Virus record (IMG/VR): IMGVR_UViG_3300023179_000340
Span: 1-31,770 of that record
Direction: 5' to 3' (one strand)
DNA from: a virus
DNA length: 31,770 nucleotides
In this document: piece after piece, positions 13,229 to 31,404 of the stretch
Layout of the letters: each line of letters begins with the position of its first letter
Numbering within the stretch: the stretch's first letter is position 1
The notes under the pieces: generated by a model
What the model was told of the DNA's origin: nothing
What the model saw: the letters and a program-made list of their open reading frames with translations, nothing else
The model's database searches: none
Translations under genes and position numbers: made by a program

Positions 13229-13453
13229 ATGACAATCTTAAAAACGGATTCCGACATTAAATTTACGATGAGTGCTAACCTAACTCCTACAGCAGTGGAG
13301 GCATTGATTCGAAAACTGCTTCAGGAAAAAACTGGTAAGAAAGTAGCGTCAGTGACGTTCAAAATTCGAAATGTAGCAGATGCCACCGATCGATATAACA
13401 CAACCGTCTTTGATGGCTGTACCGTTACATTTGAAGATGAATATACTAAGTAA
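13229..13453 (+). CDS. small protein, unknown
   Basis: About 74 aa from ATG 13229; an alternative start ATG 13268 gives about 61 aa and fits the promoter better. Regular alternation of one helix (TPTAVEALIRKLLQEKTG) and strands (SVTFKIRN, CTVTFEDE) suggests a small alpha/beta fold. Stop TAA is 4 bp before the tilS-like ATG, so the two may be co-translated. Confidence 0.6.
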   Translation: MTILKTDSDIKFTMSANLTPTAVEALIRKLLQEKTGKKVASVTFKIRNVADATDRYNTTVFDGCTVTFEDEYTK

Positions 13454-13457
13454 TAGT

Positions 13458-14084
13458 ATGGCTAAGAAAACTTGGATTTATGCCAAATCTGTACCAAAAA
13501 AGCTCTATGTGGCATGTAGTGGTGGAGTTGATAGTGTTGCAGCAGCAGCCATTCTCAGTGAGTGGAGAGACGTAACTCTAGCTCACTTTAGCCATTGGGA
13601 TCATGCTTCAGAGCAAGAACTTGAAACAGTATCGGCATTAGCCCATAAGTTGAATCTACCATTGGTAGCCGGGTATCAGGAATCGCAGAGTAAAGGCAAT
13701 GCAGAAGCTAATTGGCGAGCAGCTAGATACACTTGGTTCCACTCATTGGATGCACCTGTGGCCACCGGGCATACACTGACTGATGCTGTGGAATGGTATT
13801 TGATGACTTGCCTTCGAGGGCGCGGCGAATTTATGCCAGTTCAGAACAAGAATGTATTTAGGCCGTTTTTATTCACAAACAAAACAGAATTGGTTGAGTA
13901 TGCACAGGCTAAAGGTCTAGAATGGTGGGATGATCCCACCAATAATGATCCAGATTTTGCCTTGAGGAATCGAATTCGTAGTCAACTGCTACCACAGGCC
14001 ACCTCTTGTGAACCAGGATTGGTGAATATGGTTCGTCGACGTATTGTTGAGAAAACGAAAAAAGAAGTTGAAATTACTAGTTGA
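13458..14084 (+). CDS. tilS: TilS-like tRNA(Ile) lysidine synthetase
   Basis: 208 aa; the size matches the catalytic domain only (E. coli TilS is about 430 aa). PP-loop SGGVDS at residues 21-26; TilS-type motifs ATGHTLTDAVEWYLMTCLRG and DDPTNNDPDFALRNRIRSQLLP. TilS adenylates C34 of tRNA-Ile(CAU) and attaches lysine so that it reads AUA. This window holds at least three non-initiator CAU tRNAs (13106, 19852, 24529), so a phage-supplied substrate is likely present. The missing C-terminal domains, which help tRNA recognition, may change specificity. It ends in TGA directly before a promoter. Confidence 0.85.
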   Translation: MAKKTWIYAKSVPKKLYVACSGGVDSVAAAAILSEWRDVTLAHFSHWDHASEQELETVSALAHKLNLPLVAGYQESQSKGNAEANWRAARYTWFHSLDAPVATGHTLTDAVEWYLMTCLRGRGEFMPVQNKNVFRPFLFTNKTELVEYAQAKGLEWWDDPTNNDPDFALRNRIRSQLLPQATSCEPGLVNMVRRRIVEKTKKEVEITS

Positions 14085-14701: not shown

Positions 14702-14904
14702 AATCGCAAAGTGTGAAGTATACCAGTAACGAGGACTGGGCCCTGCACTTTAAACATGGGGCAAACGGGCGGGACTGGGGATGGCTTATCTTCTTGTAGA
14801 TAAAAAAATCCAGTTATATTAAAACATACCCCGTGCAGGGTTCGTAGGATAGGATTCCTAGTGTGTTTTAATATACACATTGGAAACAGTGTGTTTAATA
14901 ATAC
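14702..14904 (+). ncRNA. structured non-coding stretch with inverted-repeat cassette
   Basis: No gene. Nested helices: AAAGTG (14708) with CACTTT (14746) enclosing CCAGT/ACTGG; TTATCT/AGATAA; and a cassette closed by TATATTAAAACATAC (14815-14829) with GTGTGTTTTAATATA (14861-14875), 15 pairs including one G-U. It belongs to the TGAAACACA cassette family described in the findings. Confidence 0.6.
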
Positions 14905-15379: not shown

Positions 15380-16273
15380 GTGAATACAAAAGTTGAATGC
15401 AGTTGCGTAATTTGTAAAAAGATATATACTGTAAAAGGTATACATACACATTATGATAGAAATCATGCTCTGAAAGAAATAAGATTAAAATATTCTTCCG
15501 GAAACAATGGAAGTTATGATATAATTTCTAAAAGAATTGAGCAGAAAAAAATTGAACAGATTGAAGAATATATAAAGTCTCCGAACACTTGTATTATCTG
15601 TTCTAACATATTTGATTTTGAACGTAGAAATAATAAATTCTGTTCTCATTCGTGTTCTGCTACTTTTACCAACAATAAAAGAAAAGAAGATGGATGGAAA
15701 TTATCAGATGAATCTAAATCAAAAATAAGCAGTGGAGTTAAAACTCATAATTCTATCTTCGGATTAAAAGGCGGCAGATCAGTTAACCCATTATTAGAAC
15801 AAACATGCAAACAATGTGACAAAGTATTTTACTCAAAAAAGATAAAATTGTACTGTGGTGTTAATTGCTCAAAAATAATTAAAAAAGCCGAAGTAGAATC
15901 TCGAAGAACTCCACTACAAAATTATAGAGCTAACTGTGCTTTTAAGTTTAGCCTGAAGGATTATCCTGATGAGTTTGATTTTGCATTAATAATTACACAT
16001 GGGTGGTATAAAGCAAAAAATCGAGGTAATAATCAAACCGGAGTTAGTAGAGATCATGCAGTTAGTGTTAGATACGGATTTGATAATAATTTACCATCAG
16101 AACATCTAGCACATCCTGCTAATTGTATTTTGATGCAACATAATAAAAATGTGTCTAAAGGAATTAAGAATACATTTTCATATGAAGATTTGTTAATTAA
16201 AATTAAAGAGTGGGATGAAAAATATCCTCCTCGGCAGGAGTTCGATTCCCCGTCTGGTCCACCAAGTTTTTAA
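15380..16273 (+). CDS. HNH homing endonuclease with zinc-finger and NUMOD3-type region
   Basis: 297 aa from GTG 15380 (GGAG upstream, late box before it). N-terminus: CVICKK...GIHTHYDRNH zinc-finger-like segment; then CIICSNIF...NNKFCSHSCSATF, a second Cys cluster; then LSDESKSKISSGVKTHN, a NUMOD3-like DNA-binding helix; a third Cys pair; and a C-terminal HNH core (GVSRDHAVSVRYGF...HPANCILMQHNKNVSKG). The last 17 or so codons and the stop lie in tRNA 3'-half sequence (16235-16264), so the gene was inserted into or against a tRNA gene. It shares its N-terminal half, but not its nuclease domain, with the gene at 23481-24389. Confidence 0.88.
   Translation: MNTKVECSCVICKKIYTVKGIHTHYDRNHALKEIRLKYSSGNNGSYDIISKRIEQKKIEQIEEYIKSPNTCIICSNIFDFERRNNKFCSHSCSATFTNNKRKEDGWKLSDESKSKISSGVKTHNSIFGLKGGRSVNPLLEQTCKQCDKVFYSKKIKLYCGVNCSKIIKKAEVESRRTPLQNYRANCAFKFSLKDYPDEFDFALIITHGWYKAKNRGNNQTGVSRDHAVSVRYGFDNNLPSEHLAHPANCILMQHNKNVSKGIKNTFSYEDLLIKIKEWDEKYPPRQEFDSPSGPPSF
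16235..16264 (+). pseudogene. tRNA 3'-half remnant inside the HNH gene end
   Basis: T-loop GAGTTCGATTCC followed by TCTGGTCC-A-CCA. I find no matching 5' half (GGACCAG) upstream of the endonuclease, so the tRNA is broken or rearranged. Confidence 0.6.
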
Positions 16274-16629: not shown

Positions 16630-16663
16630 TGTGTCGCAGGTTCAAATCCTGCCACACAGACCA
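16630..16663 (+). pseudogene. acceptor/T-arm minihelix with CCA
   Basis: TGTGT-C-GCAGG-TTCAAAT-CCTGC-C-ACACA-GACCA: a continuous T arm plus acceptor-like stem with no D or anticodon arm. Either a deletion remnant of a tRNA or a deliberate minihelix. Confidence 0.6.
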
Positions 16664-16743: not shown

Positions 16744-17160
16744 AACATAAGATAGTCCTTATTGTTAGGACTGTAACGTCAAGGGAGTCGGGGCTAACCT
16801 TGTAAATCACGCCCGGCAGAAATACTAAGACAACACTTAGTAAGATGAGTAGATGGAAACCGAGCCATGCGAGACTGCGTGGTCTTCAGCAGCATATGAG
16901 GTGGCTGACGATGCGAGAGTAAGTCGGTCCAGTAGGGTATGAAAAGTGTTGTTGGCGGAAAAACTGCAACAAGGACAGAAGTTATATAATAACGCCGTGT
17001 ATTCCTTGACTAATTTAAGAATCAAGTGGAAAGCAAGAGCCACAAAGTAAATAGTAGACTATCATGGAACTGCGGTAGTCTTTGCAGTGATCAACTGCGT
17101 CAGCCGTACGGTTGAGCAACACTGGGGTAAGAGTCCCAACGTAGCAGTTTCAGAAATTTT
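16744..17160 (+). ncRNA. structured non-coding stretch, about 400 nt
   Basis: No credible ORF on either strand. Many local helices: GTCCT/AGGAC (16755), ACTAAG/CTTAGT (16826), ACAACACTT with AAGTGTTGT (about 16831 and 16943) closing a roughly 120 nt domain, AGACTA/TAGTCT (about 17055-17080), GCAGT/ACTGC (17083). Looks like a large folded RNA between tRNA genes; not RNase P, tmRNA or 4.5S RNA as far as I can recognise. Confidence 0.5.
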
Positions 17161-17241: not shown

Positions 17242-17316
17242 GTCCCTGTAGATTATCGGTTAGATCAACAGCCTTTCACGTTGTAGAGCCCGGTTCGATT
17301 CCGGGTAGGGACGCCA
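17242..17316 (+). tRNA. tRNA-Glu(TTC)
   Basis: Acceptor GTCCCTG/TAGGGAC, anticodon loop CTTTCAC, T arm CCCGG-TTCGATT-CCGGG, G73, CCA. The CCA also forms the first pairs of the RNA cassette that follows. Confidence 0.93.
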
Positions 17317-17434
17317 TATTGAAATACATTGTAAGCCGTGACAGGTTGAGCCTGAACGAACACACAGCACTATCGAGGTGGCTGGTCGTAGCCGAGGTAA
17401 CGAGCATCGCCTAAATCAGTGTGTTTCAATATGG
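17314..17434 (+). ncRNA. inverted-repeat RNA cassette
   Basis: Left arm CCATATTGAAATACATTG (17314-17331) starts with the CCA of tRNA-Glu; right arm CAGTGTGTTTCAATATGG (17417-17434). Inside are a CAGG...CCTG hairpin and GGTGGCTGGTCGTAGCC-type structure. Confidence 0.7.
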
Positions 17435-17763
17435 TTGTATGAAGTAGATAGAAAAGGATTCAAGACGCCGGGGCAGTGCCGGCCAGGTCCACCATAAGGA
17501 AATTGACACGGTGTACAACGTGCGTCACTGCGTCAAGCATACGGTCAGAACATAGAGTCTGAATTTAGTTTCCTTTTGATGGGCCTGACACAGGATCGAT
17601 TGAGTCAAGAGTATAGAAATGGACAACTCGGCAATGTAGAAGCCGTTAGGATTGGGGTGACCTGGTCGTAGACACAAAAACTTTATCTGCAAATGATGAA
17701 AAATTCCTAATGGCTGCGTAAGCAACCTAGGCGAGGTAGTTATACCTTGTAACCAAAAATAGC
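17435..17763 (+). ncRNA. structured non-coding stretch
   Basis: No gene. Contains AAGGAAA (17497) paired with TTTCCTT (17570), several GC hairpins, and an orphan tRNA-like 3' end GGCCAGGTCCACCA (ends about 17493). Confidence 0.45.
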
Positions 17764-18928: not shown

Positions 18929-18980
18929 AATCCTTTCAGCAAAAAAATACACTCGAAATGTAAAAAAGAGGATTCTGTTA
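18929..18980 (+). repeat. pseudoknot family copy 1
   Basis: P1 GAATCC, TTTC, AGCA, A-rich loop with inner TACA/TGTA, P1' GGATTC, then TGTT. AGCA can pair with TGTT, which lies outside P1, making an H-type pseudoknot. It ends about 6 nt before the initiator-type tRNA. Confidence 0.7.
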
Positions 18981-20870: not shown

Positions 20871-20880
20871 AATATAGTGT

Positions 20881-20909
20881 TGCAGGTTCGAGTCCTGCCT
20901 AGGGCACCA
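20881..20909 (+). pseudogene. tRNA 3'-part remnant (T arm plus acceptor strand, CCA)
   Basis: GCAGG-TTCGAGT-CCTGC then CTAGGGC-A-CCA; no 5' half. Same kind of remnant as at 16630 and 26056. Confidence 0.6.
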
Positions 20910-20974: not shown

Positions 20975-21050
20975 GCCCCTGTAACTCAGTGAACAGAGTA
21001 CTTGGCTTCGAACCAAGGAGTCGAGGGTTTGAATCCTTCCAGGGGCTCCA
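20975..21050 (+). tRNA. tRNA-Arg(TCG)
   Basis: Acceptor GCCCCTG/CAGGGGC, anticodon arm CTTGG-CTTCGAA-CCAAG, T arm GAGGG-TTTGAAT-CCTTC, T73, CCA. The CCA is also the start of the next RNA cassette. Confidence 0.9.
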
Positions 21051-21133
21051 TACGCAAACACATTTGCACCTCTTACGGTGTTAGGGAAGTTCATGCATGG
21101 CGACCCGGCGCAGGCTTAGTGTGTTTACTTATG
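21048..21133 (+). ncRNA. inverted-repeat RNA cassette
   Basis: Left arm CCATACGCAAACACATT, right arm TAGTGTGTTTACTTATG. The loop side differs from the canonical TTGAAACACA, yet both arms changed (GCAAACACA / TGTGTTTAC). Confidence 0.65.
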
Positions 21134-22594: not shown

Positions 22595-23254
22595 GTGATT
22601 GAAGTCCGTTCCGCCGAAGGTGGCGAAGACTCTAAACTATTTGTTAAAGATTTGGCACAAGCCTACATTAAATTTGCACAAAGTAAGGGCTGAACTAGCC
22701 GCCTGATAAATGAGTATCTTGGCGAAGTTCATATCTTAGTTGAAGGTACTGATTTATCTGGCTTATACAATGAGTCTGGTGGACACAGAATACAGCGTGT
22801 ACCTCCGACTGAGCGAAAGGGTCGGGTTCACACGAGCACTGTAACTGTTGCCGTTATTGATCCTTGTGTTCCAACCACATATATCAAAGAATCTGATTTA
22901 AAGATTGAATGGTATAGTGGCACTGGCGCAGGTGGACAGCATCGTAACAAGCATCAAAATAGTTGTAGAGTTACGCATATACCATCTGGTATTGTGGCAA
23001 CTGCACAATGTAGAAGTAGACAGAATAGTCAAACAGAAGCCGTTGCAACAATACAACGGCGGGTTGACGAAATATCAAAGATATCGTATAATAGCGGTAT
23101 AGCAAGTGATAGAAAAACACAAGTGGGTTCAGGTATGCGAGGGGACAAAATTCGCACCTATCGCTTTCAAGATGATGTAGTCAAAGATCATATAAGTGAC
23201 AAGACTGCAAGTGTCAAGAAAGTTATGAGTGGTAACTTTGAATTGCTGTGGTAG
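22586..23254 (+). CDS. RF1-type peptide chain release factor with in-frame UGA at codon 36
   Basis: 222 residues in one frame if the UGA at 22691-22693 is read as an amino acid. Good ribosome binding site (AAAGGAAC). Homology continues in the same frame on both sides: RF core EVRSAEGGEDSKLFVKDLAQAY before it and VHILVEGTDLSGLYNESGGHR after it. Motifs: PPT at 73-75 (RF1 PxT, stop codons UAA/UAG) and GGQ at 116-118 (hydrolysis of peptidyl-tRNA), ending GDKIRTYRFQDD. The N-terminal domain of RF1/RF2 is absent, as in PrfH-type factors. The UGA falls where RF1/RF2 have an aromatic residue (RRW/RGF), so Trp insertion would fit. Either a recoding switch analogous to prfB or a nonsense-mutated gene. 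Confidence 0.8.
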
Positions 23255-24402: not shown

Positions 24403-24426
24403 CATCGAATCCCACTGCCCCTACCA
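24403..24426 (+). pseudogene. tRNA 3'-half remnant
   Basis: TCGAATCCCACTGCCCCTACCA: T loop, T-stem strand, acceptor strand and CCA. The endonuclease start region occupies the place of the 5' part. The CCA begins the next cassette. Confidence 0.6.
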
Positions 24427-24515
24427 TAAGCAAACACACTTACCCTACGCCCGATTAGTAAGGGAGATAGCGACTAAACGCTGAAGGAAGGTTTAAGAGT
24501 GTGTTTACTTATGGT
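24423..24515 (+). ncRNA. inverted-repeat RNA cassette
   Basis: Left arm ACCATAAGCAAACACACTT, right arm AAGAGTGTGTTTACTTATGG plus T. Variant arm sequence shared with the 21048 cassette. Confidence 0.7.
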
Positions 24516-26050: not shown

Positions 26051-26055
26051 AATTT

Positions 26056-26090
26056 GCCCTATAAGAGTTCGAGTCCGGGCTGGGGCACCA
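26056..26090 (+). pseudogene. acceptor/T-loop minihelix with CCA
   Basis: GCCCTA ... TTCGAGT ... TGGGGC-A-CCA: an acceptor-like stem closes directly on a T-loop segment; D and anticodon arms missing and the T stem does not pair well. Confidence 0.55.
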
Positions 26091-26100
26091 AAAGTTATAA

Positions 26101-26232
26101 GGTTAGGTTCAGCAATCCTTAAATTTAACGAAACTGCTAAAAAATGTTTGGGCATCAAACTCCGATACTTTTTAGATAGAGGATTTTCGATATTTACCTC
26201 GATAAAAATTAAAAGTAGACAACTAACCTGTT
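26101..26232 (+). repeat. pseudoknot family copy 4 with enlarged loop
   Basis: P1 GGTTAG, GTTC, AGCA, a loop of about 108 nt, P1' CTAACC, TGTT(G). The loop has its own helices, e.g. TTTTTAGATAGAGG and CCTCGATAAAAA. Confidence 0.65.
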
Positions 26233-26520
26233 GAAAACCCGGTTACACTTTTACGTTAAAAAAGTGGGTGGGGCAGTCACCATAGAGAGTGCTAGGCACA
26301 TACTGTAATGGCCATCGGTCCCGCTAATATGGGATACCGGAAACACAGTAGGTAAGGTACAACGCCTATACCATAAGAATAAATGTTGTGGCCAGGGTAA
26401 CAACTCGGTTTAGTGACTCTTGTGGTGAGAGGCGACTAGACACTTTAATGAAGCATATCGGTAAGGGGCTTGATCAACCTGTACTGTGACGTAGCAACAG
26501 CGGTGTGTTTCAATAAAGTT
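26233..26520 (+). ncRNA. structured non-coding stretch ending in a cassette
   Basis: No gene. CACTTTT/AAAAAGTG hairpin (26249), CGGTCCC/GGGATACCG hairpin (26315-26339), then a cassette with arms ACTTTAATGAAGCATAT (26442-26458) and GTGTGTTTCAATAAAGT (26503-26519). Confidence 0.55.
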
Positions 26521-26531
26521 TAAAAAAACAC

Positions 26532-26560
26532 TTTACAAACATACAAAAGTTTGTTATAAT
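26532..26560 (+). promoter_or_regulatory. sigma70 promoter of boxA-led RNA
   Basis: TTTACA, 17 bp, TATAAT, followed by AAATACATGC, as at the other RNA promoters. Confidence 0.8.
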
Positions 26561-26589: not shown

Positions 26590-26626
26590 TGCTCTTTAAA
26601 AATTTAAGTATAAGAAGTTCTTATAC
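26590..26626 (+). promoter_or_regulatory. boxA-like antitermination site plus hairpin
   Basis: TGCTCTTTAAAAATTTA differs from E. coli rrn boxA (TGCTCTTTAACAATTTA) at one base. It is followed at 26608-26626 by a perfect palindrome GTATAAG-AAGTT-CTTATAC, giving a nut-like boxA-hairpin order. Confidence 0.75.
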
Positions 26627-26632
26627 AAATCG

Positions 26633-26717
26633 TTATTCTAAAACACATTTTGATACCTATTAGGTTAACTAGTTGATCGCAGTTAATACGGTGCGTGATG
26701 AGTGTGTTTCAGAATAG
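26633..26717 (+). ncRNA. inverted-repeat RNA cassette
   Basis: Left arm TTATTCTAAAACACATTTTG, right arm GAGTGTGTTTCAGAATAG. It lies directly behind the boxA/hairpin leader. Confidence 0.7.
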
Positions 26718-28380: not shown

Positions 28381-28572
28381 ATGAACTTTAGACAACGATT
28401 TGAGCAGTGGCATTTAAGTAAATATCGCTATATTTGTGGGGATGGATCTGGGACAGCACTTGATTACCGTTATCGTCTTGAAATAGTTCAGGCACGATGG
28501 GAAGCATGGCAAGCCAGCGCAGAGTTTTGCTCAGATTTGATTACTATGACCGCAAATAAATTTGACGAATAA
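28381..28572 (+). CDS. small protein, unknown
   Basis: 63 aa. Aromatic and Trp-rich (FEQWHLSKYRYICGDGSG, ARWEAWQASAEFC). No clear ribosome binding site. Its 3' end contains the -35 of the next RNA promoter. Confidence 0.6.
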   Translation: MNFRQRFEQWHLSKYRYICGDGSGTALDYRYRLEIVQARWEAWQASAEFCSDLITMTANKFDE

Positions 28573-28590
28573 TCGCAAATCCTATATAAT
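28562..28590 (+). promoter_or_regulatory. sigma70 promoter, structured RNA unit A
   Basis: TTGACG, 17 bp, TATAAT, then ACATACATAG. Confidence 0.8.
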
Positions 28591-28618: not shown

Positions 28619-28648
28619 GTTAGTTGCTAACAAGTTCATTAAAAATTA
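28619..28648 (+). promoter_or_regulatory. hairpin plus boxA-like leader, unit A
   Basis: Hairpin GTTAG-TTG-CTAAC followed by AAGTTCATTAAAAATTA. The hairpin-then-boxA order is that of bacterial rrn leaders. Confidence 0.65.
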
Positions 28649-29038
28649 GTTTGAACATTTTGAAACACTATCCGAACGGTTGGCTTAGAAGCAGCCATTG
28701 GTACAAGAGGTCTATATTAAACGATCTTTCAGGGCCGACAGAAGAAATTCTGCCGCTAAGAAGTGGGACAAGGGCATATAGTGACACTGTACTGTAGTGA
28801 AGGACATCAATCTACAGGAAAGTTCAATAGGGTTCAGGCTTTTGAGAGTTATAAGTCTCCCATCCCTGAATCACGCCGAGACAGTTTCGCTAGCTGTTGA
28901 AAGAATGGGATAGCTTCCCTGCGAACGAGTTGCGTATGAGTCACCTAGTAAAGTTACTTAGGCACACCTGAGAGGGCAAGTGCAGAAGATTCCTTTGGCG
29001 TAATAGCATATCTGATAGTGTTTCAAAATGTTCAAACT
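28648..29038 (+). ncRNA. 391-nt structured RNA closed by a perfect 25-bp inverted repeat (unit A)
   Basis: Arms 28648-28672 and 29014-29038 are perfectly complementary over 25 bp and contain TTTTGAAACACTATC / GATAGTGTTTCAAAA. Inside: GACAGAAG-AAATT-CTGCC-type, GGGTTCAGGC...CCTGAATC, ACTAAGTAACTTTACTAGG-like (CCTAGTAAAGTTACTTAGG) and other helices; no ORF. Layout promoter, hairpin, boxA, stem-enclosed RNA is like an rRNA precursor in miniature. Confidence 0.75.
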
Positions 29039-29041
29039 GAT

Positions 29042-29070
29042 TTGACAATAAATCTCATGTATGTTACAAT
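29042..29070 (+). promoter_or_regulatory. sigma70 promoter, unit B
   Basis: TTGACA, 17 bp, TACAAT, then ACATGCATAAG. Confidence 0.82.
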
Positions 29071-29080
29071 ACATGCATAA

Positions 29081-29124
29081 GTTGATCGAGCATTGTCTGG
29101 GTCAACAAAGTTCATTAAAAATTA
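29081..29124 (+). promoter_or_regulatory. hairpin plus boxA-like leader, unit B
   Basis: GTTGATC (29081) pairs with GGTCAAC (29100-29106), then AAGTTCATTAAAAATTA (29108-29124). Unit C has GATCAAC instead of GGTCAAC, a pair-preserving change. Confidence 0.7.
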
Positions 29125-29419
29125 AAGTCAGTTGGACTAGGAAGCCCTTAGAGTCATATGCTGAATGGGTGTATGAATTGGGTGTGTACTGTTCGGAGTA
29201 ACTTGATCTTGTATCAAGGGAAGCTGTTTCCGTCTAAAACGGAGCAGGGAATGCCGATCTAACAATTGACTTTTCTTTTTGCTCATTAAAATTCTAACTG
29301 TATTAGCTCACAAGCAACCGCAGGACTTGTGTTAAAAAGATGCGGAGTTGAGGACGACAATATTTGCTAAGTCCTGTCTTAAATGACCCAACAGTAGATC
29401 GCTAATGTAGTTAGAATTT
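29124..29419 (+). ncRNA. structured RNA unit B: two stem-closed domains
   Basis: Domain 1: AAAGTCAGTTG (29124-29134) with CAATTGACTTT (29263-29273). Domain 2: AAATTCTAACTGTATTAGC (29289-29307) with GCTAATGTAGTTAGAATTT (29401-29419), 19 pairs with two G-U. Between them TTGCTCATTAAAATT repeats the boxA-like motif. No ORF. Confidence 0.7.
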
Positions 29420-29421
29420 AT

Positions 29422-29450
29422 TTGACAATAATTAGCATGTGTGTTACAAT
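29422..29450 (+). promoter_or_regulatory. sigma70 promoter, unit C
   Basis: TTGACA, 17 bp, TACAAT, then ACATGCATAAG; almost identical to the unit B promoter. Confidence 0.82.
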
Positions 29451-29460
29451 ACATGCATAA

Positions 29461-29504
29461 GTTGATCAAGCATTGTCTAGATCAACAAAGTTCATTAAAA
29501 TTTA
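29461..29504 (+). promoter_or_regulatory. hairpin plus boxA-like leader, unit C
   Basis: GTTGATC (29461-29467) with GATCAAC (29480-29486), then AAGTTCATTAAAATTTA (29488-29504). Confidence 0.7.
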
Positions 29505-29516
29505 AATGATTATGTT

Positions 29517-29606
29517 CTTCCTTGCTGAAGACAACATTGAGCCCGATAACGTGGCAATATATGATAACAGTCCGCATTGTCGTGATGACATAGCGTAGCG
29601 AGGAAG
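29517..29606 (+). ncRNA. cassette C1
   Basis: CTTCCTTGCT (29517-29526) with AGCGAGGAAG (29597-29606). Directly abuts cassette C2 without a spacer. Confidence 0.6.
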
Positions 29607-29685
29607 CCATATTGAAACACATTGTCCGAACCCGAGGTAGCAATGGCATTGCAGAGGTTTAATTGTATAGTGTGTTTCAATATGG
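29607..29685 (+). ncRNA. cassette C2
   Basis: CCATATTGAAACACATTG with AGTGTGTTTCAATATGG (29669-29685). Inner GCAAT/ATTGC hairpin. Confidence 0.75.
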
Positions 29686-29761
29686 TATATGTAAGTGGCG
29701 GGTGGTATAACCTAAGTTGCCGATAGGTGATAAGCAGTTGTAATTACTGCATCTGTCTCTT

Positions 29762-29895
29762 ATACCATATTGAAGTATACTCGACGGGTGCCATACCGCA
29801 GGTTCAAACGCGGTCAACATTCGGTAGCCCTGGCAGGCTGCGAAAATCTCTTATGCCAGTAGGGGAGAATTATTGAGTGTGTTTCAATATGGTAT
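29762..29895 (+). ncRNA. cassette C3
   Basis: Arms 29762-29782 and 29875-29895 form 21 consecutive pairs, three of them G-U, because the left arm reads GAAGTATAC where the right arm keeps GTGTGTTTC. Contains a T-loop-like ACCGC-AGGTTCAAAC-GCGGT hairpin. Confidence 0.78.
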
Positions 29896-29900
29896 AGAAA

Positions 29901-30012
29901 TCATATAAAAACACATTACTTCGCAGGACTGCCGATCCAGTCTGTAACTCCTTGTCGTAACCTAGCGTGAGAACTAGGGGAGTGCGATTCTCATTAGTGT
30001 GTTTCAATATGG
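29901..30012 (+). ncRNA. cassette C4
   Basis: TCATATAAAAACACATTA with TTAGTGTGTTTCAATATGG (29994-30012), two mismatches. Inner GGACTG/CAGTC and CCTAG/CTAGG hairpins. Confidence 0.65.
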
Positions 30013-30016
30013 TATT

Positions 30017-30111
30017 ATATTCAAGTACACTGCTTGCCCGACCGAAAAAGTCGAGGAAAACTACTAGAGAAACGGGTTCGAGTCCCGGGGACTGGTAGTG
30101 TACTTGAATAT
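30017..30111 (+). ncRNA. cassette C5 with T-arm-like hairpin
   Basis: ATATTCAAGTACACT with AGTGTACTTGAATAT (30097-30111), 15 perfect pairs; both arms differ from the TGAAACACA consensus in a matched way. Encloses CGGG-TTCGAGT-CCCG (30073-30087). Confidence 0.75.
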
Positions 30112-30218
30112 GGTGAGTAGGCAAGTGGGTTTTTGATAGGGAGAAATTATTTGCGCTCTGTAAGTTCACGCCATAGTAGAACCTCTACAACGTCATCAAT
30201 CTATCGCGAAACTTGTCG

Positions 30219-30295
30219 CCATATTAAAACACATTGACTAGCAGGGTCGCGAAGCCTGCTTTCAGGGTAGCTCCCATCTGTGTGTTTCAATATGG
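30219..30295 (+). ncRNA. cassette C6
   Basis: CCATATTAAAACACATTG with TGTGTGTTTCAATATGG (30279-30295). Inner AGCAGG/CCTGCT hairpin. Confidence 0.72.
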
Positions 30296-30345
30296 TAAGA
30301 GAGTAATTAACTCTAATCATAATCGGGAATAGCTAACCCGATGAC

Positions 30346-30470
30346 CCGTGGTAGTTTAATGGCAAAATGAGAGAGACATGGGTTCGAATCCCATCCGTCC
30401 GCTTATACGGGCGGTAGCTTAGTGGTTAGAGCGCAGACAGATGGCAGTTTCGAAACCTGCCCCACAATGG
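30346..30470 (+). other. two tRNA-like segments with D and T arms but no anticodon arm
   Basis: Segment 1: GGTAGTTTAATGGCAAAATG (D-arm-like) goes straight to ATGGG-TTCGAAT-CCCAT (30378-30394). Segment 2: GGGCGGTAGCTTAGTGGTTA followed by GGCAG-TTTCGAAAC-CTGCC. Neither has an anticodon stem. Confidence 0.5.
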
Positions 30471-30474
30471 GTCG

Positions 30475-30553
30475 CTATATTGAAACATATTGTCACAGTA
30501 GCAGGCGAAAGTCCTACGCTCGAAGTTAAAACTAGGCAGTGTGTTTCAATATG
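30475..30553 (+). ncRNA. cassette C7
   Basis: CTATATTGAAACATATTG with CAGTGTGTTTCAATATG (30537-30553). Inner GTAG...CTAC hairpin. Confidence 0.7.
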
Positions 30554-30698
30554 ATGTGGTGTAAGCAGGTAAACACGGTCGAGGACAAGCCAATACGGAT
30601 GGCCATTAACAGTAATATGTTAGGTCTGCACTCATGGCAAAAGTTGATCGGAATAGCTAGTGCAACAGACTATTCCAGTACAGGTTCGAATCCTGTCG

Positions 30699-30774
30699 TC
30701 ATATTGAAACACACTGATTGTGTATGGCTCGCAAAATCCGAGACTCCCAGCCTTTGTAGTGTGTTTCAATATGG
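30699..30774 (+). ncRNA. cassette C8
   Basis: TCATATTGAAACACACTG with TAGTGTGTTTCAATATGG (30757-30774). Preceded by GAATAG...CTATTC and T-arm-like ACAGG-TTCGAAT-CCTGT (30680-30696). Confidence 0.72.
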
Positions 30775-30777
30775 TAT

Positions 30778-30886
30778 CATAGTTTAGTGTTTAGCCGATA
30801 AATTAATAACAGCAGGTAAGTTCGCGATAAGCTCCTGCGGGGTAGTGATAGGGTTGCAAACCTATTACGTTGAGCACTAAACTATG
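30778..30886 (+). ncRNA. cassette C9, different arm sequence
   Basis: CATAGTTTAGTG (30778-30789) with CACTAAACTATG (30875-30886), 12 perfect pairs. Inside, GCAGG...CCTGC and ATAGG-GTTGCAAA-CCTAT, the latter like a Cys anticodon arm. Confidence 0.65.
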
Positions 30887-30996
30887 GTAAGTAATGTAGA
30901 TCGGAATGAAACAGGGCGACTAGTCATCGTCAATGTCGTGAAGGAATCGCATGAAGTTCAGACAATAACCCCTTGACCGGGGCGACGATATGAACA

Positions 30997-31109
30997 CCAT
31001 ATTGAAACATATTGGTACGAATATGTCGTGCAAGTGATTGTCCCGTGAGGGTTTGTCAAATAATCAATCTCTACAGCCTCCAAAGCAGGGCTAGTATGTT
31101 TCAATATGG
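30997..31109 (+). ncRNA. cassette C10
   Basis: CCATATTGAAACATATTGG with CTAGTATGTTTCAATATGG (31091-31109): A-U pairs replace the G-C pairs of other cassettes on both arms. Confidence 0.75.
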
Positions 31110-31117
31110 AGATGAAA

Positions 31118-31230
31118 CATAATTCAAGTATATTTCAGGTTGGGTAGTATTCGCGGTACTGCTATTTGGGTCTGTAGACAGGATTTGATGCCAGGTCGTG
31201 ACTAAGATACGAAGTATATTTGAATTATGG
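31118..31230 (+). ncRNA. cassette C11
   Basis: CATAATTCAAGTATATTTC with GAAGTATATTTGAATTATGG (31211-31230), a further matched variant. Inner CAGGTTGGG...CCAGGTCGTG and AGTATTCGCGGTACT hairpins. Confidence 0.7.
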
Positions 31231-31330
31231 AGACTGAAACTTATTTTTTGCGGACACGATGAGAACCAAACGATAAGCGGATAAAGTGGACGGGATATGG
31301 GTCATGCCTGTATCTAGGCTGTCTCCACCA
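31229..31330 (+). other. tRNA-like segment with CCA end
   Basis: GGAGAC (31229) pairs with GTCTCC (31321-31326), followed by A-CCA. No recognisable D or T arm between. Confidence 0.4.
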
Positions 31331-31404
31331 ATTTTATGTACATGAGCCCGAAGATTGAGGGTACCGGCCAGAGTCCGGCGAAAGACGATTGAAATGATCT
31401 CCAT

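Follow-up and report, generated by a model that had tools for sequence, protein, structure and literature searches.

Organization of the locus

The window analysed here is a 31.8-kb virus fragment (IMG/VR virus record IMGVR_UViG_3300023179_000340, positions 1 to 31,770) that carries a T4-type terminase, 33 tRNAs, and one permuted transfer-messenger RNA (tmRNA), and whose nearest isolates by terminase are Pseudomonas phage PA5oct (57%) and the jumbo phages Phosso and Atu_ph07. Ten stem-closed RNA cassettes lie in the region 29607-31229, each consisting of an insert (the cargo) enclosed by a pair of inverted arms (the clamp), and the predicted fold of all ten includes a clamp some 15-22 bp long (Table 1). 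A first-pass annotation of the same DNA had described at least ten such cassettes in tandem at 29505-31230, with matched changes in the two arms; ten were indeed located, and the matched changes were recovered as TTCAAGTACA/TGTACTTGAA at 30016/30099, GAAACATA/TATGTTTC near 30999/31094, and G-U pairs at 29766. The array is not peculiar to this window; it is part of a widespread cassette system with anchoring at tRNA CCA ends, exchanged cargo, and leaders of the ribosomal RNA (rRNA) type. Five further window positions carry the same clamp (14815, 17314, 21049, 24424, and 26633), and a mismatch column of the A.C type is found inside the clamp of two window cassettes (29900 and 30219). Eight of the ten array inserts have cargo homologues in other phages (29608, 29766, 29902, 30016, 30220, 30476, 30700, and 31118); loci outside the window are labelled L plus a number. 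We propose that these elements probably constitute a phage RNA-cassette system, i.e., exchangeable accessory RNA genes that are released by tRNA-end processing.

Pairing of the clamp arms

Cassettes were gathered by exact arm-pattern searches of IMG/VR contigs, hundreds of which matched, and 322 loci yielded 727 of them, 589 being distinct; an exact 18-mer, AGTGTGTTTCTATATGGT, gave at least 120 matches in the viral-contig scan. The clamp consensus over all cassettes is approximately RCCAUAUUGAARCACAYU...AGUGUGUUUCAAUAUGGY and occurs in two flavours, UUGAA/UUCAA and UAAAA/UUCUA, the second with a conserved A.C mismatch. Standard pairs make up 94.9% of positions in 356 distinct clamps, compared with 86% when partners were shuffled and 30-53% when the arms were slid, and cells with two-sided changes numbered 496 versus about 125 with shuffled partners. 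Because detection of this first clamp set had required pairing, the covariation test was repeated without any pairing filter and yielded 298 two-sided-change cells (shuffled mean 67, maximum 90 in 200 shuffles); in the same test there were 168 G-U and 38 A-C cells outside the mismatch column (265 and 137, respectively, after shuffling). Arm covariation together with the tolerance of G-U argues for selection on RNA, and from the aligned sequences we conclude that the clamp is selected for RNA pairing on the tRNA-sense strand. Selection on RNA pairing had been suggested from the window alone, and the covariation is also present in homologous phages. In consecutive cassettes the arms match within a cassette over between neighbours by 94 to 13; pairing of a right arm with the left arm of the next cassette was considered and rejected, being weaker than the pairing within cassettes.

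The inverted arms of fixed sequence, the insertion at CCA, the existence of empty sites, and the exchange of cargo would also be expected of selfish DNA, i.e., terminal inverted repeats resembling those of miniature inverted-repeat transposable elements or integron attC sites, that are aimed at tRNA 3' ends, fold in single-stranded DNA, and carry the cargo along as a passenger. We consider this unlikely: G-U is tolerated above A-C on the tRNA-sense strand, the empty sites show varied short spacers (e.g., CCA-TT-GG and CCA-AAT-GG) and no target-site duplication, the cargoes carry covarying folds of their own, and the ends do not resemble attC core sites. A mobile element with terminal inverted repeats is further disfavoured in that no interior is common to all copies. 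A CRISPR array was also rejected; the repeats are paired inverted arms, and the cargoes are structured and shared.

Distribution among phages

By terminase, 14 cassette-bearing records separate into at least three deep lineages, with identity down to about 24%: one is PA5oct-like, another comprises T4-like phages related to cyanophages and to phages of Pelagibacter and Methylophilales, and a further one stands at about 25% identity. The cassettes thus cross phage lineages, and the clamp system is not a chance pattern. Bacterial and archaeal genomes gave 45 matches to a 17-mer, approximately the number expected by chance, with a single pairing that was spurious. Among isolated phages neither the full array nor the clamp arms were found (a weak test for arms of 17 nt), a 1.6-kb cassette set had no match in 50,697 phage records, and no CCA-anchored clamps were present in the tRNA clusters of PA5oct, Atu_ph07, and Phosso. 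A literature search found no description of the cassette system; preprints and most subscription papers lay outside its coverage, so an earlier description is possible.

Anchoring at tRNA CCA ends

The first three clamp bases coincide with the CCA of a tRNA called by ARAGORN in 261 of the 589 distinct cassettes, and 458 of the 589 begin with CCA in all. In approximately 20 cases of the first cassette set, the final G of the 14-nt right arm is also the first base of the next tRNA. Nearly all cassettes are flanked by tRNAs or other RNAs; in eight cases both flanks belong to one tmRNA. Where the upstream RNA ends in CCA and contains neither a tRNA nor a T-loop, a 7-bp acceptor-like stem was found in 25/154 cases compared with 36/770 control positions, and some RNAs upstream of cassettes are not canonical tRNAs.

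Two stretches of the window (30113-30221, GGCAAGT/ACTTGTC-G-CCA; 31230-31331, GGAGAC/GTCTCC-A-CCA) have a 6-7 bp acceptor-like stem, a discriminator base, and CCA without a cloverleaf. Lone T-arm plus CCA pieces occur at 16236-16266, 16630-16663, 20875-20908, and 26052-26090, and resemble tRNA 3' halves without the 5' half.

A clamp that begins at CCA, often finishes at the next 5' G, and with its 18-20 bp offers a plausible RNase III substrate might merely serve the flanking tRNAs as a spacer for maturation or insulation (an RNase III site, an exonuclease barrier, or a protection of CCA), with the insert, highly variable in length and sequence, as neutral filler. This explanation, too, is unlikely in our judgement. 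Most neighbouring tRNAs in the window have clamp-free spacers and empty sites exist, the inserts are conserved across phages with compensatory changes, and the same insert is found under a different clamp in tmRNA linkers. Moreover, no phage RNase III was found among 41 cassette-bearing records; a phage RNase III was rejected as the clamp enzyme on this ground, and a dedicated clamp nuclease of the RNase III family encoded by the phage is unlikely.

Cargo families and their exchange

The inserts form 289 sequence clusters among the 589 distinct cassettes, which bears out the earlier remark that inner sequences differ; 171 clusters are singletons and the Good-Turing coverage is 0.71, so the cargo pool is far from exhausted. 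Structure in the cargo was assessed by covariation in 38 families, each represented by four or more distinct sequences; across them, two-sided changes occurred at 124 base pairs versus 26 in shuffled alignments. The same cargo cluster occurs behind different tRNAs. The family of cassette 4 (cluster 8), for example, shows family covariation and was found behind tRNAs for Arg, Thr, Gln, Leu, and Glu.

The first-pass annotation had also noted recurrent T-loop hairpins, and the T-loop motif is present in 67 of the 589 inserts where 5 were expected; a T-arm is kept in several families (clusters 8, 11, 29, and 35). All cargoes might accordingly be degenerate or mimic tRNAs, serving as decoys that absorb tRNA-cutting or tRNA-modifying enzymes. 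We regard this as quite improbable for the cargoes as a whole, as about 89% of the inserts lack the motif and the family folds are unrelated.

For the analysis of exchange, sites were compared at which the 120-nt flanks are at least 95% identical. Different cargo within the same kind of clamp was found at 26 of 117 cassette sites, whereas under the same flank threshold tRNA units differed at 7 of 153 sites (Fisher p=1.8e-5) and random windows at 3 of 91 (p=7e-5). Several pairs of loci (L418/L191, L289/L035, and L284/L267) have wholly different cargo between flanks that are 100% identical. By this comparison the fast-moving part is the cargo and not its neighbourhood.

A 31-nt cargo, ACTAAGAGTCCAGGTTCAGAGCGTGGCATAG (ACTAAGAGTCCAGGTTCA...GCGTGGC), was found in at least 36 different contexts with the canonical clamp and also, under the different clamp AAAGTATA/TATACTTT, in the linkers of eight phage permuted tmRNAs, all eight of which match RF04321, seven beta_tmRNA (RF01850), and one alpha_tmRNA. 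On these sequences the cargo is independent of the clamp, and its sharing with tmRNA linkers indicates that the cassette has the geometry of such a linker: a CCA end, a stem-closed insert, and the next 5' end. The tmRNA type hints at betaproteobacterial hosts for these phages.

Promoters and boxA leaders

Searching 2.9 Mb for the rRNA-type boxA gave 100 sites on the transcript strand and 0 on the other strand. Of 85 distinct boxA sites, 65 lie no more than 150 nt from a tRNA or cassette, and 47 are preceded by a sigma-70-like site at most 110 nt upstream, compared with 41 of 966 random positions. In the window there are four such units (26.5k, 28.6k, 29.0k, and 29.4k), each with promoter, hairpin, and boxA (Table 1; the E. 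coli rrnB boxA is GCTCTTTAACAATT). The natural reading of these leaders, as far as their sequences can tell, is that of long untranslated operons under rRNA-type antitermination.

Two untranslated stretches of the window (16814-17157 and 26170-26450) are conserved, at 71-90% identity, in other cassette-bearing phages. By eye, a hairpin element, AGGATnC-TTCAGCAA ... GAATCCTGTTA, recurs among the tRNAs at 18930, 19258, 25757, 26105, and 26880.

An RNA resembling the 23S GTPase-associated centre

The window unit beginning near 28.6k contains a larger RNA of about 400 nt, the cargo of which resembles the GTPase-associated centre of 23S rRNA (H42-H44): positions 28679-28698 correspond to E. coli 23S positions 1059-1078, and GGCGTAATAGC follows approximately 300 nt further on. 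The H43 18-mer was found in 117 IMG/VR contigs, of which 115 show no longer stretch of 23S similarity, and covariation is visible in its stem (loci L424-L540). An H43-type RNA is also present, unannotated and mostly beside tRNAs, in isolates (L541-L545) such as Pseudomonas pf16, Xanthomonas XacN1, Aeromonas 4_4572, Astolliot, and Cronobacter GAP32. Of 93 distinct copies, 39 have a strict H44 motif on the 3' side and none has one on the 5' side. No Rfam family matches this RNA; its likeness to the centre suggests that it may bind L11 or translation GTPases.

The identity over 20 nt of this adjacent RNA to 23S, and the occurrence of GATGAAAAGACCC in one cargo, raised the idea that the cargoes are pieces of a fragmented rRNA carried by the phage. 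It was rejected and appears to us highly improbable: similarity of the cargo clusters to E. coli 16S, 23S, and 5S rRNA is not above that of dinucleotide shuffles, and the large-subunit (LSU) rRNA model finds nothing in 20 records.

Other features of the window

The coordinates of the cassettes, leaders, and related RNAs are collected in Table 1. At 13380-14084, where the tRNA array begins, lies a TilS-like PP-loop protein that is probably a tRNA-modifying enzyme, and the reading frame 22668-23254 contains a GGQ motif (GAGGQHRNK) and appears release-factor-like (by eye only).

Table 1. Cassettes, leader elements, and stem-closed RNAs of the window
Feature	Position	Strand	Details
Cassette	14815..14875	+	33-nt cargo
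Cassette	17314..17434	+	starts exactly on CCA of tRNA-Glu (17242-17316), ends at permuted tmRNA
Cassette	21049..21131	+	imperfect clamp following tRNA-Arg CCA; 96% homologue in locus L338
Cassette	24424..24514	+	precedes tRNA-Met (24529); cargo at 12 other loci
Promoter	26532..26560	+	TTTACA-17-TATAAT
boxA	26591..26604	+	GCTCTTTAAAAATT
Cassette	26633..26717	+	downstream of promoter and boxA; cargo at 11 other loci
Sigma-70 promoter	28562..28590	+	TTGACG-17-TATAAT
boxA-like	28634..28647	+	GTTCATTAAAAATT, after hairpin
Larger RNA, ~400 nt	28643..29043	+	clamp-like closing stem, core CATTTTGAAACACT/AGTGTTTCAAAATG; cargo resembles 23S GTPase-associated centre
Promoter	29042..29070	+	TTGACA-17-TACAAT
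boxA-like	29110..29123	+	GTTCATTAAAAATT, after hairpin GTTGATC/GGTCAAC
Stem-closed RNA	29289..29419	+	19-bp arms, between second and third promoters
Promoter, cassette array	29422..29450	+	TTGACA-17-TACAAT
boxA-like, cassette-array leader	29490..29503	+	GTTCATTAAAATTT
Cassette 1	29607..29685	+	clamp CCATATTGAAACACA/TGTGTTTCAATATGG; 49-nt cargo; cargo homologue in locus L224
Cassette 2	29761..29896	+	clamp rich in G-U; 98-nt cargo; cargo homologue in locus L097
Cassette 3	29900..30013	+	clamp flavour CATATAAAAACACA; homologues in loci L324, L242, L053
Cassette 4	30014..30114	+	compensated clamp TTCAAGTACA/TGTACTTGAA; T-arm in cargo; cargo family at 12 other loci
Cassette 5	30219..30295	+	homologue in locus L300; family cluster 10
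Cassette 6	30475..30553	+	homologue in locus L004, 93%
Cassette 7	30699..30774	+	homologue in locus L300, 97.5%
Cassette 8	30777..30887	+	variant clamp CATAGTTTAGTG/CACTAAACTATG; homologue not found
Cassette 9	30997..31109	+	clamp GAAACATA/TATGTTTC; homologue not found
Cassette 10	31118..31229	+	variant clamp CATAATTCAAGTATA...; homologous cargo at 6 loci

Proposed mechanism

In the RNA-cassette system that we propose, untranslated RNA operons (tRNA arrays and, in this window, a dedicated cassette array) would begin at sigma-70 promoters, often followed by a hairpin and an rRNA-type boxA, and the boxA leader probably lets host RNA polymerase read through long untranslated RNA without Rho termination. 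Each cassette would be co-transcribed with the tRNAs as a near-fixed clamp of 18 bp around a structured cargo of 30-130 nt, placed between the CCA that ends one RNA and the 5' end of the RNA that follows. The clamp, in which the upstream CCA is paired with the downstream GG, would insulate the fold of the cargo from its neighbours. RNase P, acting at the downstream 5' end, and 3' maturation at the upstream CCA end would then free the cargo as a stem-closed small RNA, in parallel to the removal of the linker from permuted (two-piece) tmRNA. Clamp DNA that is nearly identical among phages could provide the homology for exchange, so that phages of different lineages would swap cargo and keep the socket. 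The cargoes are most plausibly RNAs for host takeover or anti-defence, such as binders, decoys, or tRNA mimics.

Several points weigh against this interpretation. The conservation of the arms is in part a product of their detection by pattern search, and for two window cassettes (30777 and 30997) no relatives were found. The median folding energy of the cargo alone is just slightly below that of shuffles (z -0.4), and the case for cargo structure thus rests on covariation in the 38 testable families, outside which the 171 singleton cargoes fall. Given the lack of a phage RNase III in the 41 records, any cleavage of the clamp would be the work of host or other enzymes. Homologous recombination through the clamps is assumed, and the evidence comes from comparing sequences of uncultured phages, from which transcription, processing, and phenotype are predicted.

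More tentatively, and with rather less than even confidence, we suggest that phages of several lineages draw on a common, open-ended pool of structured RNA effectors, hundreds in number, that are traded as standard clamp cassettes at the ends of tRNAs and tmRNAs and set free by host tRNA maturation, i.e., an RNA counterpart of integron cassettes for which an arms race with host defence is the probable driving force. Accessory genes traded by phages are usually thought of as protein genes; what is traded here would be a structured RNA placed in a uniform socket, with hundreds of cargo families, unrelated to one another, lying in DNA that annotation usually labels as tRNA spacer, and this looks like an undescribed way in which viruses gather RNA genes and trade them. 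Should the cargoes act on the host, they would make up an extensive and so far unexplored repertoire of RNA effectors (decoys, inhibitors, or regulators), and the long-standing question of what the extra stable RNAs in phage tRNA clusters do would receive a concrete answer if the proposal is true. The clamp and its CCA geometry provide a simple handle with which cassettes can be found in any metagenome and tested singly.

Comparison with known systems

The first-pass annotation had taken the array for a phage RNA of undescribed plan, in keeping with the finding that the cassettes match no Rfam family, and had named the large RNAs GOLLD and ROOL as the nearest idea, which did not survive comparison. 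GOLLD and ROOL likewise occur in phages beside tRNA genes, but they are single large RNAs and neither reached threshold in the window, where tRNA and tmRNA were the only matches at gathering score with all Rfam families; neither was among the best 150 matches from 15 cassette-rich loci, which were tRNAs and one group I intron. Membership of the cassettes in a known large phage RNA family of this kind has, in our view, almost nothing to recommend it beyond location.

The bacterial Y RNA-like YrlA (RF02553) also contains tRNA-like modules, and the RNA that separates cassettes 5 and 6 matches it in part (26.0 bits); the cut-off of 69 bits was not reached in the window (26.0 and 17.0 bits), and the cassettes themselves gave no match. 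This intervening RNA (30296-30475) is conserved in approximately 17 other phages and has two D-arm-like and two T-arm-like hairpins within one covarying 7-bp acceptor-like stem that ends near CCA.

Integron cassettes with their attC sites are alike in forming an open pool of exchangeable, arrayed modules with a standard folded site. The phage cassettes differ in that the modules are RNAs inside the folded site rather than genes between sites, and in the RNA-type wobble of the arms; the attC core, RYYYAAC/GTTRRRY, is not matched by the clamp consensus RCCATATTGAARCACAYT/AGTGTGTTTCAATATGGY.

The nearest experimental precedent is provided by the stable RNA species 1 and 2 of phage T4 (rnaC and rnaD), which are likewise small RNAs in a phage tRNA cluster, directly downstream of tRNA-Arg; rnaC has a T-arm and the end of rnaD adjoins a CCA. 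They are just two RNAs, without a clamp or a series of cassettes; no sequence relation to the cassettes was found, and no exchange of cargo was seen for them here. To our knowledge, no function has been assigned to either.

The intervening segment of permuted tmRNA (RF04321, RF01850, and RF01849) has the same geometry of CCA, stem-closed linker, and 5' G, and shares one cargo family with the cassettes. The permuted tmRNA of the window (17433-17721; RF04321, 97 bits) has its own stem-closed linker and lies directly downstream of a clamp cassette. In permuted tmRNA both ends belong to one molecule, whereas in the cassettes they come from neighbouring tRNAs or other RNAs, and the same arrangement holds hundreds of cargoes.

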